From Rhodococcus sp. IEGM 1409 (GTDB lineage Bacteria; Actinomycetota; Actinomycetes; Mycobacteriales; Mycobacteriaceae): a stretch of 64,000 nucleotides of DNA. The notes under the pieces are model-generated. The model saw only the letters and a list, made by a program, of their open reading frames with translations, made no database searches and was not told the origin of the DNA. Positions within the stretch are counted from its first letter, which is position 1; every line of letters starts with the position of its first letter. The stretch is from contig NZ_JASHKN010000009.1 in the NCBI RefSeq assembly GCF_030056735.1, positions 1 to 64,000 on the forward strand. The letters are read 5' to 3'. The position numbers were made by a program, and so were the translations under genes. Of this stretch, positions 53,434 to 59,732 are shown one piece after another.

Positions 53434-54160
53434 TTTGAACCTTTTCTTTCGTTGAGAAACGATTGACGTTCAACAAGATGAAATGTCGCAACTGATTTCG
53501 AATCGCGGCATCATCGCAAAGAAAATCTCCTCCTCCCTACCCGTGGACAGAACGAACTCGGATACAGCGCCATTCCGGGAATGGCGTTTCCCGGAGGCGA
53601 GACAGATTCGAATACCGTTGCAGGACAGTTGAGAGTAGATTTCAGCTCAGAAAGTCCACACATGGTCGGCGGTAGAAAATCGATATAGGGGTAAGCCTCC
53701 GCAGCGATGCAGAACAATCACATCCTGCGTCCAGTGCCGGCGAGAATTCTCGCATCCCGAAACCCTAGAACAGGTACCAGTTTTCTCACTTTGCCGACAA
53801 AGTCAAGGAAAGGCGAATAGTTCATACTTTAGACGCAGCGCCAGGGCCCTTCGCCTCAACTGGAAGTTGGAAAACCGGTCGAGCAGTCGAAAAATACTGG
53901 CAGACAACGCAAATAGATTGGCTCCACGAGAGTTCGATTCTCTCCACGCTCATGTTGCCAGGTGACAATTCGCGGGATCGCGCAACTCAACCTGTCCACC
54001 CGGCCATCCCTTAGTACTTTTGGACGATAGTTTGCAAATTTCGCCCGAAATGTCCGAAATCGGATACTCTTCCGCCACAAGCAATCCAAGCCACACGGGG
54101 ATTCGGACGTGGCACGAATTGACTACCAGCCGCAGGGGGACTTGATCGGGAGGTTAACCG
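53434..54160. other. Long divergent intergenic region
   Basis: 727 bases between the secreted-protein gene (minus) and the lanthipeptide synthetase (plus). No convincing gene: a 68-codon minus-strand frame (53511-53717) starts on TTG without a ribosome site. The region holds the conserved motif at 53765-53785, an AT-richer stretch at 53880-54070 likely to carry the synthetase promoter, and a GGGAGG site just before the synthetase TTG. Confidence 0.55.
53765..53785. promoter_or_regulatory. Shared motif CTAGAAC-N5-CCAGTTTTC, copy 1
   Basis: CTAGAAC-AGGTA-CCAGTTTTC. An 18-of-21 match recurs at 57739-57759, upstream of the small-peptide operon. The core TAGAAC-AG-GTACCA differs by one base from the KstR consensus T-N2-AAC-N2-GTT-N2-A. 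Both copies have the same orientation relative to the minus-strand genes they precede. Confidence 0.5.
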
Positions 54161-56743
54161 TTGGACCTGCGATACGTCGCCTTCACGCGTGCCGACCCGC
54201 ATTACTACGACCGCATCAGAACAGCGGCTCGAACTGACTCACCGCCCAACCAGCACTTCACTCCCGACAGGTCAGTGGATTGGTCGCTCTGGCGACGCGG
54301 TCCCCAAGACGGACCGTGGAACTACTTACAACCGCCTGGCGCCCCGCTACCCGAGCAGGGATGGAAGATTCACTGCTCCGCTACCCAAGCCAATGCACAG
54401 GAACTGCTCGATACTGTTTCCTCGTATTGCGGCCATAACCTGGTGCCGTTCAAATTTCTTCGGACAGCGACAGACCTCATGTTGTCCAACAGCAAGCAGG
54501 CCAATCGGACCTCCAGCGGAAAATTCATCACGATCTATCCGTCGGATGGCGTTGCCACACAACGAGTCATCAGCGACGTGGAGAAGCTCGTCGGGGGTGC
54601 CGACGGGCCGTACATCCTCAGCGATGTGCGATGGAACCGGGGACCGCTCTACCTTCGATACGGCGCGTACCTGCCCCTGGAGACCTACGATTCACTCGGC
54701 GATCGAGTTCCGGCAATCAGACGTCCTGACGGTTCACTCGAACCCGATGTGCGCGGCACCTACTTCAGAACACCCGACTGGGTGAAGATCCCGGACTTTG
54801 TTCGTACGCAACAAGACAAACTCAAATCACCAGGCGAGTTCCCCTTCTCGGTTCGAGAAGCCCTGCACTTCAGCAACAGTGGAGGAATCTACTCTGCGTT
54901 CGACAGCAACGGCGTCAATGTGGTCATCAAAGAAGGCCGGCCCTTCACCGCCCCGGACGCCAACGGCCGGTACGCGATCGACCGCATCCGTAACGAGTAC
55001 GACACGTTGACTCACCTTGCCGACAACCCGTACTCACCTTCTGCGATCAGCTTGTTCGAGCGAGAGGGACACCACTTCCTTGTCACCGAGCGCGCTCCCG
55101 GCACTCCCCTGAATCAGGAAATTGCGCTCCGCTACCCGCTGATACGTGCGGACCAGACACTCGGTTCCCGAACGGAATACAGAACCTGGGCGCTCGACAT
55201 CGCAAAACAGTTGACCACCGCAGTCGAGAGCTTCCACAACGCCGGAATCGTTCATGCCGACCTTCACCCCGGCAACGTCATGTGCTCACCGTCTGGTATT
55301 CGGATCATCGACTTCGAGATGGCCCACAACATCGACGAGCAGCCGCCCCGTTCCACCGGAGCCCCCGGGTACACCGCACCACCAGAGCTGACCGGGATCG
55401 AGGCGGATCGATACTCCTCGGGATGCATCGAGTTGGGACTCTTTGTCCCACTTACTATATTGTTCCCCCTCGATTGCAGCAAGATTCCCGAACTCATCGA
55501 CTTTGCGGTGTCTCGATTCGATCTTCCTCGCGCCTTCCGTGCCTCGCTCTACTCGATGCTCGGCGTACAGCCGCCGGGATCGGAGGATCACCAGCATCGT
55601 TGGGACGCGTCGTCGCGGGAGACCTTGCTACGTACGGGCGCTCTCTTACGCTGCGGAATCCTCGCCTCGCTCGATCTCTCCCGCTCTGATCGACTCTTTC
55701 CCGGCGACATCGCCCAGTTCGAAGTGAACGGCTACGGCATTGCTCACGGCTCGTGCGGAAACCTACTCGCCGATAATCTTCCCACCGACACCTTGGAGTC
55801 AGTTCTGGAATGGACTGAACATCAAGTTGATTCGGATACGCAACCACGGTTCGGCTTCTTCGACGGGCTCGCGGGTGCGGTACACACCTTTCGGCATCTA
55901 GGACGACATTCGACTGCCGACAGATGGGTCGAGACTTTGTGCAGAGCCCCACTCGACGAGCTCGACTCCAGCCTCTTCAGCGGCCTTGCCGGAATCGGTT
56001 GCCTACTGCTCGAGGAATCGGATTCACGACCGATGGTGTCACCCGCTCTCGCTGTCGTGACAGAAACTCTGCGCGAACGAATTTCGTCCGCTCGCACGCA
56101 TGTCCGCGACACCGACGGAACGCCTTGGGCAGTGGCCGGCCGAGGTGGGCTGATGCGGGGACCGAGCGGACAAGCGCTGTTCTGGACTCGCCACTACGAA
56201 CTGAGCGGTAATCCTCGATCGCTGGAACACGCACGCCAGCTCGTCGACATCGATCTGTCTGTGATGCAGATGTGCCCTGACGGATCGATGCAGCTGAGAG
56301 AGGAGCGCCGGACAATGCCGTATCTCGGATCGGGATCCGTCGGTGTCGGGCTTGTGCTCCTACAGCTTCTGCGCCATGTCGACGAACCGCGTTACGCAGC
56401 TGCGGTACGTGCGATATCCCGCGCCACCACAGTCGAATTCACCGCTCAAGCTGGGCTGCTCAACGGTCGAGCTGGATTGATTCTGTTCCTCGGCGAGCTC
56501 TCCACGACCCCCTATGCCGACGCCGATTGCGAAAGCACATTGGCCCAACAGCTACAGTTTCTGGGCTTGCACTCCGTCAAACACCAAGGAAGCCTGCACT
56601 TTCCAGGTGAGCAGAACCTGAGACTCTCGACAGATTGGGCAACCGGATCTGCAGGAATACTGGCATTGCTCCGACATACCGGATCGACAGCTGCCCGACA
56701 GTCGTTTCCACTGATGTGCGCGTCAAACTGCCACATCTCCTAA
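54161..56743 (+). CDS. Class III lanthipeptide synthetase (LanKC)
   Basis: An 860-residue three-domain enzyme that phosphorylates Ser/Thr of a precursor peptide, eliminates phosphate, and forms (methyl)lanthionine or labionin. Residues 1-220: N-terminal lyase domain (ending WVKIPDFVRTQQ). Residues 225-480: Ser/Thr kinase with VVIKEGR (Lys257), HADLHPGNVM (365-374, catalytic loop) and IIDFEMA (DFG equivalent, 383-387). Residues 500-850: LanC-like cyclase with FDGLAG, FSGLAGIG, LLNGRAGLILFL and DWATGSAGILALL; the zinc-binding Cys-His-Gly of LanC/LanL is missing, which marks class III rather than IV. TTG start at 54161 follows GGGAGG at seven bases. Precursor gene lies 136 bases downstream. Confidence 0.93.
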   Translation: MDLRYVAFTRADPHYYDRIRTAARTDSPPNQHFTPDRSVDWSLWRRGPQDGPWNYLQPPGAPLPEQGWKIHCSATQANAQELLDTVSSYCGHNLVPFKFLRTATDLMLSNSKQANRTSSGKFITIYPSDGVATQRVISDVEKLVGGADGPYILSDVRWNRGPLYLRYGAYLPLETYDSLGDRVPAIRRPDGSLEPDVRGTYFRTPDWVKIPDFVRTQQDKLKSPGEFPFSVREALHFSNSGGIYSAFDSNGVNVVIKEGRPFTAPDANGRYAIDRIRNEYDTLTHLADNPYSPSAISLFEREGHHFLVTERAPGTPLNQEIALRYPLIRADQTLGSRTEYRTWALDIAKQLTTAVESFHNAGIVHADLHPGNVMCSPSGIRIIDFEMAHNIDEQPPRSTGAPGYTAPPELTGIEADRYSSGCIELGLFVPLTILFPLDCSKIPELIDFAVSRFDLPRAFRASLYSMLGVQPPGSEDHQHRWDASSRETLLRTGALLRCGILASLDLSRSDRLFPGDIAQFEVNGYGIAHGSCGNLLADNLPTDTLESVLEWTEHQVDSDTQPRFGFFDGLAGAVHTFRHLGRHSTADRWVETLCRAPLDELDSSLFSGLAGIGCLLLEESDSRPMVSPALAVVTETLRERISSARTHVRDTDGTPWAVAGRGGLMRGPSGQALFWTRHYELSGNPRSLEHARQLVDIDLSVMQMCPDGSMQLREERRTMPYLGSGSVGVGLVLLQLLRHVDEPRYAAAVRAISRATTVEFTAQAGLLNGRAGLILFLGELSTTPYADADCESTLAQQLQFLGLHSVKHQGSLHFPGEQNLRLSTDWATGSAGILALLRHTGSTAARQSFPLMCASNCHIS

Positions 56744-56879
56744 TTGTTCGGAAGTTATCACCCCCGGAAGATTGGAGCACAGAATTATCAGGCCAAGAAC
56801 CTGAAATGAAATCAGCACCGCAAGAAAACTCGATCGACAAATCCATCGGCAAAAACGCCGATCAACAAAGGAACTGACA

Positions 56880-56990
56880 ATGGACGCTATCCTCTCCCTT
56901 CAAGACCTTTCAGTCGCCGCCGGCAACGTCGGAGATGCCGGCCAGCTCGATCAGAACGCGGCTATCAGTTCGCTCAGCTTCTTCTGCTGA
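56880..56990 (+). CDS. Lanthipeptide precursor peptide (LanA), 36 aa
   Basis: A 36-codon gene with AAAGGA eight bases before its ATG. The leader begins MDAILSLQDLSVAAGN and contains ILSLQDL, the conserved LxLQ box recognised by class III synthetases (compare ILELQNL of labyrinthopeptin and LFDLQSM of RamS). The peptide ends AAISSLSFFC: Ser30-x2-Ser33-x2-Cys36, the Ser/Ser/Cys arrangement needed for one labionin or lanthionine ring, and similar to SSLSITTC in SapB. The cysteine is the last residue. Only one ring can form, which is unusually small. Located between the synthetase and a strong terminator. Confidence 0.9.
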   Translation: MDAILSLQDLSVAAGNVGDAGQLDQNAAISSLSFFC

Positions 56991-56996
56991 GCTCAG

Positions 56997-57034
56997 GCCG
57001 ATACCTCGGATCAAATCCGGGGTATCGGCTTTTT
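56997..57034 (+). terminator. Rho-independent terminator of the lanthipeptide genes
   Basis: GCCGATACC-T-CGGAT pairs with ATCCG-G-GGTATCGGC around CAA, followed by TTTTTC, seven bases after the precursor stop. Confidence 0.9.
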
Positions 57035-57056
57035 CGAATCTTTATCGCAACACAAA

Positions 57057-57097
57057 ATGCGGGCCGTCTCGTCACCTATCGACGAGCCGACCCGCAT
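57057..57097 (-). terminator. Rho-independent terminator of the small-peptide operon
   Basis: On the minus strand, ATGCGGG...CTCGTC/GACGAG...CCCGCAT form an interrupted stem, followed by TTTGTGTTG, eight bases after the last small gene's stop. Confidence 0.78.
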
Positions 57098-57104
57098 CAT
57101 CAGG

Positions 57105-57206
57105 TTATTCCGCGCTGAACGAGGGAATCATCATGCTTCCCATCACCGCCAAGCCGCTGACATCTCGAAGCGAACCCAGAGCATTACTCAAGAAGGAAAA
57201 AAGCAT
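57105..57206 (-). CDS. Small hydrophobic peptide gene 4 (33 aa)
   Basis: Fourth of four tandem short genes. A near-perfect Shine-Dalgarno AAGGAGG lies ten bases before ATG 57206. The product starts MLFSFLSNALGSLRDVSGLA and ends VMGSMMIPSFSAE; it has one Arg, one Asp and one Glu, many Ser/Gly and hydrophobic residues, no Cys and no signal-peptide pattern. A 43-base gap separates it from gene 3, and a terminator follows. No family recognised; the size and character recall corynebacterial PorA/PorH. Confidence 0.68.
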   Translation of the reverse strand: MLFSFLSNALGSLRDVSGLAVMGSMMIPSFSAE

Positions 57207-57249
57207 TAGATACTCACCTCCTTAAGTCGCGAGTAGTCGGATCGGAAGG

Positions 57250-57363
57250 TCATCCCTTGACCCATCCGTCACTCGACAATGCAGTCAGCATTTCGAAGAG
57301 GCTGACGTGGATCGATAACAGCGACCCGGTGAAAAGAACAAAGACGTCTTCCACGGAACCCAT
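57250..57363 (-). CDS. Small hydrophobic peptide gene 3 (37 aa)
   Basis: AGGAG is eight bases ahead of ATG 57363. The product begins MGSVEDVFVLFTGSLLSIHV and continues SLFEMLTALSSDGWVKG: acidic overall (two Glu, two Asp against one Lys and one His), amphipathic, Ser/Leu-rich. Follows gene 2 after 14 bases. Its frame does not overlap any larger gene, and the ribosome site and stop-start spacing support translation. Confidence 0.68.
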   Translation of the reverse strand: MGSVEDVFVLFTGSLLSIHVSLFEMLTALSSDGWVKG

Positions 57364-57377
57364 TTTCACTCTCCTAT

Positions 57378-57512
57378 CTATTTGAACGGATTGAACGGGA
57401 CGTCGAGACCGAAGTCCACAGAGAGTGCAATCGGCATTGTGATGATGGACTTGAAAGCAGTCAGCATCATGGGCAAGAGGGCCGAAACCGAACCCAGATC
57501 AGATGAATTCAT
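57378..57512 (-). CDS. Small hydrophobic peptide gene 2 (44 aa)
   Basis: AGGGGG lies seven bases before ATG 57512. The product begins MNSSDLGSVSALLPMMLTAF, continues KSIITMPIALSVDFGLDVPF and ends NPFK. It has one likely membrane-active helix (SALLPMMLTAFKSIITMPIAL) and an acidic/aromatic tail. The open frame extends upstream to 57632 but that part overlaps gene 1 in another frame and has no ribosome site. Gap to gene 1 is 11 bases. Confidence 0.68.
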   Translation of the reverse strand: MNSSDLGSVSALLPMMLTAFKSIITMPIALSVDFGLDVPFNPFK

Positions 57513-57523
57513 CTCACATCCCC

Positions 57524-57625
57524 CTATTCGCTCGAGATTCCGGTGAGCCCGTCGATGACGGCCCCACCCGCATCTATTGACCCGTAGGCGAAATTCATAA
57601 TCGCCTGCAAGAACGGAACTAACAT
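57524..57625 (-). CDS. Small hydrophobic peptide gene 1 (33 aa)
   Basis: First of the four. GAAGGAG lies six bases before ATG 57625. The product begins MLVPFLQAIMNFAYGSIDAG and ends GAVIDGLTGISSE: no Lys or Arg, two Asp and one Glu, alternating hydrophobic and Gly/Ser residues. No Cys, so it is not a lanthipeptide substrate. Promoter region with the shared motif lies 114-134 bases upstream. Confidence 0.68.
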   Translation of the reverse strand: MLVPFLQAIMNFAYGSIDAGGAVIDGLTGISSE

Positions 57626-57941
57626 TTCCCACTCCTTCGCAACGGACAGTCGCATGTCGTCGGTAAGAATTTCCTTCACCCGAATGACGGGATCTGGGGC
57701 CGAGCGATCACGATGTGGGTGTAACCGTAGACAAAGTTCTAGAACGCGTGCCAGTTTTCGCGATTTATTTCAATTTTTCCGTCTTAAGTCGGAGATTCGA
57801 CGGCTAACTCATAGGTGAACTAGTCCTTAAGTTCTAAACAAAATGCCGAAAATCGGGGTTTCGCTTGTCGCGCCCATTACAGAATGAACGGTATTGTTTC
57901 ATCATGGGACGCATACACACTTCACCGAACTTCATCCCCCG
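57626..57941. other. Divergent, AT-rich intergenic region
   Basis: 316 bases between the small-peptide operon (minus) and the permease gene (plus). It holds the shared motif at 57739-57759 and an unusually AT-rich stretch (about 57755-57860) for this genome. A short plus-strand frame from 57884 overlaps the permease start and does not look coding. Confidence 0.5.
57739..57759. promoter_or_regulatory. Shared motif CTAGAAC-N5-CCAGTTTTC, copy 2
   Basis: CTAGAAC-GCGTG-CCAGTTTTC, preceded by GTT so that GTTCTAGAAC is itself a palindrome. It matches copy 1 (53765-53785) at 18 of 21 positions and lies upstream of the four small-peptide genes. Confidence 0.5.
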
Positions 57942-58988
57942 ATGATCTACGCGACCTGGAGGCAATGCCGAGGGCAGATCGTATGGTCATTGGCGGTGAT
58001 ATTCCTGCTGATCCTGACAGCCACGATTTCACAGTGGTTCGTCCAGCGTTCGGGCGAGAGTTGGGTTTCAGGGGGCATCTGCTCACGCTGGTACGACGGA
58101 GGTGGCGGTTGCCGCGCCGACACCGCTCTCACCTTGACGACGCTTCTCGCACTCCTACTACCGTTCGTCTCAGGAATGCTGGTCGGCGTAACTACATTCT
58201 CGAGAGACTTCGAGCAGGGGCCCGAGAATCTCGACCTTCGGGAATCCACCAACCTTGTTCGGTGGTATTTCTCGCGGATCCTGGTGGTCTTCGTGCCGGT
58301 CACGCTTGCGATGACTCTCCTCGGTTTGGTGCTCGGCTGGACCCATTCGCTGGGCCGCGGAGCAACCACAACAGATGAAATGAGCTCGTTCTCCTTGATG
58401 GAGTTCCCCAATTTTCATACGACAGGAATCGTCGTCGGCGCCTACACCTTTGTCGCCATGGTCACCGGCAGCGCGGCCGCATTGCTCGTGCGCAACACCG
58501 TCGTCGCGATGGTCACGACTCTTCTCGTGTTCTTGATCGTGCCCGTCGCGTTGAGCGCAATGGTCCGCGAGCACTACGCGTTTCCCGACATTGAAGTCCA
58601 ACCCATCGACGGACGGGCACGTGCCGCGGAATACGCACCGTCTCCGTATCAAAATCTCGACTCGAGGTGGGTCATCGGTGCCGGCTTCGCCGATACGGAC
58701 GGCAACATGATCGACGCCGACTACTCAATGTGCAGGGGCTCAGACAATTCCGATCAGACGCAGCAAGACCGTGAGATCGACGACTGCCTTCGAGAGCAGG
58801 GAATCGATCACTACGCCTTGACCTATCACTCACAGAGCCGGTACTGGCTATTTCAGTTCATCGAGACTGCCGTGATGCTGTTGTGCGCCGGGGTGATGAT
58901 GATGCTCGCACTCTTCGGTGCGCGTGGACTACGTCGACAATCCGCCGAGTGCACGATGTCCGAAATGTTGAAAGTCGCTGAACAGTAG
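57942..58988 (+). CDS. ABC-2-type permease-like membrane protein, no partner ATPase
   Basis: A 348-residue integral membrane protein with about six spans. The start MIYATWRQCRGQIVWSLAVI and the segment LLPFVSGMLVGVTTFSRDFE followed by RWYFSRILVVFVPV match an actinobacterial ABC-2 permease group (W-R-Q-x-R-x-Q at the start; acidic/arginine turn after the second span). A ~100-residue external loop with Cys-rich acidic stretch (MCRGSDNSDQTQQ...DDCL) precedes the last span. No ATP-binding gene adjoins it. ATG 57942 has no good ribosome site; TTG 57894 is an alternative start. Could export or give immunity to the nearby peptides; inference only. Confidence 0.7.
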   Translation: MIYATWRQCRGQIVWSLAVIFLLILTATISQWFVQRSGESWVSGGICSRWYDGGGGCRADTALTLTTLLALLLPFVSGMLVGVTTFSRDFEQGPENLDLRESTNLVRWYFSRILVVFVPVTLAMTLLGLVLGWTHSLGRGATTTDEMSSFSLMEFPNFHTTGIVVGAYTFVAMVTGSAAALLVRNTVVAMVTTLLVFLIVPVALSAMVREHYAFPDIEVQPIDGRARAAEYAPSPYQNLDSRWVIGAGFADTDGNMIDADYSMCRGSDNSDQTQQDREIDDCLREQGIDHYALTYHSQSRYWLFQFIETAVMLLCAGVMMMLALFGARGLRRQSAECTMSEMLKVAEQ

Positions 58989-59044
58989 TAAGTTTCACTT
59001 CGACATCCCTTGTATTCGAAATTTTGTTCGGATGTGATTGCTTC

Positions 59045-59732
59045 ATGGACAGTCGGGAAGCGTGGCAGCTGGATGGTGAAGACCTCGAGAGTGAGGTTCT
59101 GGATCTGGTGCGCGTCCGGCACGAGTTGCAGTCGCGGATGGTCTTGCTGATCGTGGAGATGTTCGCGGTTGCTCCTGCTTGAACCTGTTGTCGCGGATGC
59201 GTTTCACCGGGGTGATGTGGATGCGTTGAAAGCGCGTCAGGTGGCGTTGTTTTGTCAGCATCCGCCGAAGAACATGACCCCGGCGGATGTGGACAAGGCC
59301 CGCGGAATTCTGCTGGGGTTGGCGTCGAAGAACATTGCTGATTGTGATGCGGTGCGGGCGGCGATTCGGCGGATCGAAAAGCAGTACGGAAAACGTGAAG
59401 ACGGCGTTCCGCTCGAGTGCGGCAAGGAAGTGCGGACGGCGACGGTTCCGCAGCGGCGTGCGTTGGCGGTGCGCGATGGTGGGTGTGCGTTTCCGGGGTG
59501 CGGGACACCATCGGGATGGTGCGATGCTCGCCATCTTGTGCACTGGAGTGACGGTGGCCCGACGGATCTCGACAACCTGATCTTGTTGTGTGGTCATCAT
59601 CATCGGACACTGCACCACACCGAATGGCGGGTGGAGATAGGCCCCGATCGGAAGGCGGTGTTCTACCCGCCTATGTCGATCGACCCGCACCAGCACCCGG
59701 TCGGCGGAAACAGCCCACCCACAGCAGCCTGA
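59045..59732 (+). pseudogene. Decayed DUF222/HNH endonuclease gene
   Basis: An N-terminal piece (59045-59182, start MDSREAWQLDGEDLESEVLD) ends in a stop, and the rest continues in another frame from 59169. The C-terminal part is a good HNH domain of the DUF222/REP13E12 type: CAFPGCGTPSGWCDARHLVH, WSDGGPTDLDNLILLCGHHH, RTLHHTEW. Intact relatives have 400-500 residues; here the middle, including most of DUF222, is gone. So an internal deletion with frame change is likely. These genes are common, repetitive and mobile-looking in actinobacteria. Confidence 0.78.

Follow-up and report, generated by a model that had tools for sequence, protein, structure and literature searches.

The DNA analysed here (the window) comprises 64 kb of Rhodococcus sp. 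IEGM 1409 (contig NZ_JASHKN010000009.1, positions 1-64,000). On its forward strand it carries lanKC, a gene for an 860-aa class III lanthionine synthetase (54161-56743), followed by lanA (56880-56990), which encodes the 36-aa precursor MDAILSLQDLSVAAGNVGDAGQLDQNAAISSLSFFC. A hairpin with a T run that resembles an intrinsic terminator (56995-57034) comes after lanA, a cassette of four small ORFs occupies the reverse strand at 57040-57846, and a gene for a 347-aa putative ABC-2-type permease lies at 57945-58988 on the forward strand. The lanKC-lanA pair is present in R. erythropolis and its close relatives. Comparisons below refer to R. qingshengii IEGM 1359 (L001), R. erythropolis NBRC 15567 (G002/L002, with its permease region as L061), Rhodococcus sp. 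P-2 (L003) and the genome G012 (L006/L063), and to the sister Rhodococcus genomes G016 (L057), G018, G022 (L056) and G023 (contigs L059 and L065). The IEGM 1409 genome itself (G000) was searched by protein family.

The synthetase and its precursor

The lanKC frame runs uninterrupted for 860 codons from a TTG at 54161 to the stop at 56743, with the ribosome-binding site GGGAGG upstream (54148-54153); in four related species this start codon is GTG. None of the five species compared has a truncated copy of the gene, whose dN/dS between species is 0.18-0.23. Its product matches the NCBIfam class III equivalog NF038151 over nearly the full length (868 bits, cut-off 575) and contains the Pfam domains RamC_N, Pkinase and LANC_like, with the lyase at about residues 43-221, the kinase at about 241-425 and the LanC-like cyclase at about 503-838. 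The best solved relatives by sequence are class III LanKCs (8sao/8sap/8sam, 8w7l, 9ugq). Alignment with 15 relatives showed the lyase signatures QGWKIH, SGKFxTxYP, GPYILSD and RYG to be intact, as are the kinase Lys, the catalytic loop HADLHPGN and the DFE motif. At the cyclase positions that bind zinc in the LanC domains of classes I, II and IV the alignment places Gly and Leu-Asn instead of Cys and Cys-His. This likens the enzyme to ThurKC, a solved class III enzyme in which the ligands are also replaced, by Ser726, Phe770 and Asp771 (PMC10604976). The profile match, the Pfam domains, the intact motifs and the replaced zinc positions all agree with the first-pass annotation, which had described a complete LanKC with lyase, kinase and zinc-less cyclase. 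Assignment to a class IV (LanL) cluster was rejected, as the LanL model NF038150 gave 369 bits only against a cut-off of 650 and the zinc ligands are absent from the cyclase. An AlphaFold model of LanKC built on an alignment of 3-4 sequences had a mean pLDDT of 37, too poor for use.

The precursor gene starts 136 bp 3' of lanKC behind the ribosome-binding site AAAGGA (56867-56872). Its product has a leader recognition box of the LxLQ type, ILSLQDL, at residues 4-10 (56889-56909) and ends in the ring motif S30-S-L-S33-F-F-C36 (S-x2-S-x2-C; 56967-56987). A survey of the whole 64-kb window, counting alternative starts, yielded 1731 candidate frames of 25-80 codons, and lanA was the only one to combine an LxLQ-like box near the start with a C-terminal S/T-x2-S/T-x2-5-C. 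R. qingshengii IEGM 1359 has exactly the same predicted peptide, while R. erythropolis NBRC 15567 and Rhodococcus sp. P-2 have D24E and an extra C-terminal Leu. Each pairwise comparison among four species covered about 25 synonymous and 83 nonsynonymous sites. Synonymous changes numbered 2-7 per pair and nonsynonymous ones 0-1, which corresponds to a dN/dS of about 0.04 or less. The sole fit among 1731 frames and the mostly synonymous substitutions together argue that lanA is genuinely coding and not a chance frame.

Leader boxes equivalent to ILSLQDL were found in relatives as ILEFQEI, VLQFQEI and ILALQDQ. Relatives carry S-x2-S-x3-C where IEGM 1409 has S-x2-S-x2-C, and no intact relative has lost the Cys of the terminal region. 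The lanA of G012, whose lanKC is intact, lacks one base (L063:5418) in the run that reads AACGCGGCA in relatives, so that the core is frameshifted; either a genuine lesion or an error of sequencing may account for this. Against the NCBIfam class III precursor model NF038154 lanA gave a weak full-length alignment of 13.7 bits (cut-off 22), with the precursors of related loci scoring equally low, and it did not match the SapB/AmfS precursor model NF033212. Folding detects the hairpin after lanA (56995-57031) at -30.2 kcal/mol with z = -6.05, and it is kept in all five species, though a consensus terminator scan of the window did not list it. Both the 36-codon precursor, with its ILSLQDL box and C-terminal S-x2-S-x2-C, and the terminator behind it had been noted in the first-pass annotation, and uniqueness, conservation and folding energy bear them out. 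That annotation had also proposed comparing the precursor among relatives that keep the synthetase; it is conserved there with one exception, the frameshift of G012.

The downstream permease and an inserted cassette

The permease gene lies directly 3' of the lanA hairpin in R. qingshengii IEGM 1359, Rhodococcus sp. P-2 and G012 (L063). Since this order is conserved in related species, the permease gene is, as judged from synteny, a member of the class III locus, which thus extends beyond two genes. In the window the gene is displaced by about 850 bp owing to the cassette inserted between it and lanA. The locus had earlier been called unusually compact; this does not hold, as related species keep the permease in synteny and only a strain-specific piece of plasmid-type DNA sets it apart here. 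The accompanying statement that no protease, ATPase or regulator is adjacent is true for IEGM 1409.

A Pfam search of the window permease returned no recognised family. Its nearest other relative (58%) sits in the class III locus of G022, and a paralogue (36%) is encoded in the genome of IEGM 1409 (G000:C55) within an operon of GntR regulator, ATPase and permease. The ABC-2 character of the window permease is drawn from this paralogue, which itself scores 20 bits against the ABC-2 family PF12679, below cut-off, but has a clear ABC ATPase and a GntR regulator beside it. The gene at 57945-58988 is thus most likely an ABC-2-type permease that lacks an ATPase partner, no ATPase gene adjoining it in the window locus, and we infer that the ATPase of the distant GntR operon may serve it. 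The permease is under purifying selection (dN/dS 0.2-0.4) and is fragmented in R. erythropolis NBRC 15567 (L061); with this break and the lanA deletion of G012, neither lanA nor the permease is kept everywhere. An AlphaFold model, again from 3-4 aligned sequences, reached a mean pLDDT of 45, too poor for use. Beyond the permease, at 59043-59732, lies a remnant of an HNH endonuclease (DUF222/13E12-like), disrupted here and intact at 412 aa in R. qingshengii IEGM 1359 and R. erythropolis NBRC 15567.

Among the 28 Rhodococcus species genomes, only that of IEGM 1409 contains the 840-bp stretch (57040-57880) that separates the permease from the lanA hairpin. Positions 57040-57846 are 91-94% identical to stretches on seven Rhodococcus plasmids, including NZ_CP046100.1 and NZ_CP077418.1. 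The four reverse-strand ORFs (57105-57206, 57250-57363, 57378-57512 and 57524-57625) encode hydrophobic peptides of 33-44 aa, each has a good ribosome-binding site, and they are conserved between the plasmids and the window; a hairpin stands at the end of the cassette. Pfam gave no match for the peptides. In size they recall the PorA/PorH cell-wall channel peptides or multi-peptide leaderless bacteriocins, a resemblance by analogy. A role for the cassette as a component of the cluster was rejected on its absence from related loci and its plasmid-like character, and it is most likely an independent element outside the lanthipeptide pathway.

Related loci and the ancestry of the cluster

LanKC was found in 9 of the 28 Rhodococcus species genomes, and outside Rhodococcus an enzyme of comparable similarity occurred in a single genome (Hoyosella) among 401 family genomes searched. 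The sister Rhodococcus genomes G016, G018, G022 and G023 resemble the window in having a LanKC (41-43%) and precursors of 35-36 aa. They differ in an LxFQ leader box, in precursor ends (SALSVALC, SGLSTIFC, SAWSISLC) with x2-x3 in place of x2-x2 spacing, and in that the permease is separated from the precursor by a response regulator and two histidine kinases. In G016, G018 and G022 the locus consists of lanKC, a precursor with an SxxSxxxC end, a LuxR-type response regulator and two histidine kinases; the permease that follows the regulators is intact in G022 and truncated in G016. A transposase-like gene is inserted between precursor and regulators in G016 (L057:7421-8827). These loci are flanked by a thiolase on one side (G016, G018) and by genes for a short-chain dehydrogenase and an MTLT-type protein on the other, and since the flanking genes correspond, the three loci lie at the chromosomal site of the window's cluster. 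The absence of a regulator is consequently a trait of the R. erythropolis lineage and not a rule for the locus, given that sister species carry a response regulator and histidine kinases at the equivalent site. G023 has a full related lanKC on a short contig. On another contig of that genome, near the usual flanks, a truncated lanKC start is joined to the end of a permease, which suggests that its cluster was moved, or deleted at the usual site.

Between the window and the sister species the flanking proteins share 87-94% identity, whereas LanKC shares only 41-43%. The nearest relative found outside Rhodococcus is the LanKC of the Hoyosella subflava plasmid pAS9A-2 (NC_015561.1), at 46% identity. 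Its precursor is also like that of the window, with 36 aa (MTHILALQDQPTDTKLSHEHGETLLSGWSALSIVYC) and a Cys at the end, although the locus is plasmid-borne, has a histidine kinase and a response regulator adjoining and shows x2-x3 spacing. A maximum likelihood tree grouped the LanKCs of the R. erythropolis group with that of pAS9A-2 (support 98/98), apart from the sister Rhodococcus clade; a tree with all Rhodococcus together was rejected marginally (p-AU 0.038). This placement, and conserved flanks around a divergent LanKC, suggest that the lanthipeptide genes of the R. erythropolis group may have been exchanged in place.

The SapB/AmfS (ram/amf) clusters of Streptomyces are likewise arranged with lanKC followed by a small precursor gene and transport genes. 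They differ in having two ABC exporters with ATPase domains and, in two clusters, a response regulator, and their LanKC is only about 38% identical to that of the window. Membership of the SapB/AmfS subfamily was rejected because the precursor does not match NF033212 and the locus has a permease only, with no ATPase gene. The description of SSLSFFC as SapB-like therefore applies only loosely; NF033212 is unmatched, and the x2-x2 spacing departs from the x2-x3 of both the sister clade and Hoyosella. The bacinapeptin and paenithopeptin loci of Firmicutes share with the window a single S-x2-S-x2-5-C core and a protease that is often unclustered, but belong to a different phylum and use M16B proteases (PMC8960859).

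Proposed pathway and product

Gene integrity, family, motifs, coding conservation and synteny are the grounds on which the two-gene pair is called real, and the locus is very probably a class III lanthipeptide biosynthetic cluster in reduced but working form. Catalysis, ring type, leader protease and export route are proposed here by extension from known systems. The class III LanKC mechanism is established (PMC10604976). By analogy, LanKC would bind the 36-aa precursor through its N-terminal ILSLQDL helix, the kinase domain of the enzyme would phosphorylate Ser residues of the C-terminal SSLSFFC, and its lyase domain would eliminate the phosphate to give dehydroalanine, to which the metal-free cyclase would add the thiol of the terminal Cys. 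The expected product is a short, very hydrophobic peptide with one lanthionine or labionin ring at its C-terminus; single-motif class III products are known (PMC8960859). The leader would be removed by an unclustered peptidase, most likely an M1 enzyme of the AplP type. Actinobacterial class III clusters are usually without a clustered protease (PMC7268733, PMC8960859), so its absence here is normal and not unusual. The genes of AplP-type M1 enzymes lie outside the clusters on which these enzymes act (PMC10885120), and the family search of the IEGM 1409 genome found three M1 and two S9 peptidases away from the locus. Export would probably proceed via the downstream permease together with an ATPase encoded elsewhere.

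The absence here of regulators that the sister clade has at the equivalent site, the broken permease of R. erythropolis NBRC 15567, the lanA frameshift of G012 and the strain-specific insertion between lanA and permease could together be taken as signs of decay, the locus being the remnant of a fuller class III cluster (one with a two-component regulator and a complete exporter) whose expression or export the R. erythropolis group has lost. We regard this as unlikely, in view of the purifying selection on all three genes (dN/dS about 0.2 for lanKC, at most 0.04 for lanA and 0.2-0.4 for the permease) and of a lanKC that has kept its full length throughout the five species. Less probable still is a modification by LanKC that differs from a labionin or lanthionine ring, such as dehydration without cyclisation. 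Ala substitutions at Asp771 and Phe770 leave ThurKC able to dehydrate but not to cyclise (PMC10604976), and LanKC has Leu-Asn where ThurKC has Phe770-Asp771. However, the Asp771 position is variable (N, R, H, T, A) among 16 actinobacterial LanKCs, several of which have annotated SapB/AmfS precursors, and the terminal-region Cys is retained by all intact precursors of the relatives. That the lanA frame is incidental and LanKC acts on a precursor encoded elsewhere would fit the sub-threshold NF038154 score, but the conserved position, leader box and ring motif, the strongly synonymous substitutions and the lack of a second such ORF in the 64 kb make this extremely improbable.

For the functional class III cluster favoured here, a surface or signalling role of the SapB type is weakly preferred to an antibacterial one, by analogy, because related loci pair these genes with a LuxR-type response regulator. 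A more specific scenario would have the R. erythropolis group keep a reduced class III system in which a LanKC like that of the Hoyosella plasmid replaced the earlier one at its site, and which makes a single-ring hydrophobic peptide of about 10 residues for the mycolic-acid envelope, with the permease borrowing the ATPase of the GntR operon. Taken as a whole, this scenario is speculative and unlikely.

Genome mining with antiSMASH has reported 136 class III clusters in 616 Rhodococcus genomes (PMC11433410) and a class III cluster without known match in all five R. erythropolis strains compared (PMC10819586), and a conserved lanthipeptide cluster, class not given, has been described in the R. 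erythropolis group (PMC7358434). The published R. erythropolis class III clusters may be the present locus, its LanKC being the sole one found in the genome of IEGM 1409. The open-access (PMC) literature, mostly as titles and abstracts, yielded no characterised class III product from Rhodococcus. The first-pass claim that no such product is described is to that extent upheld, with the qualification that clusters had already been reported (PMC11433410, PMC10819586). The locus thus appears to be real and of a well-known kind, with a product that seems to be undescribed. With one enzyme, one 36-aa substrate and a single ring motif it is among the simplest possible cases for reconstitution, and for this reason could serve to test the choice between lanthionine and labionin. 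The locus also prompts one to ask why a SapB-like peptide system persists in mycolic-acid bacteria lacking aerial hyphae.
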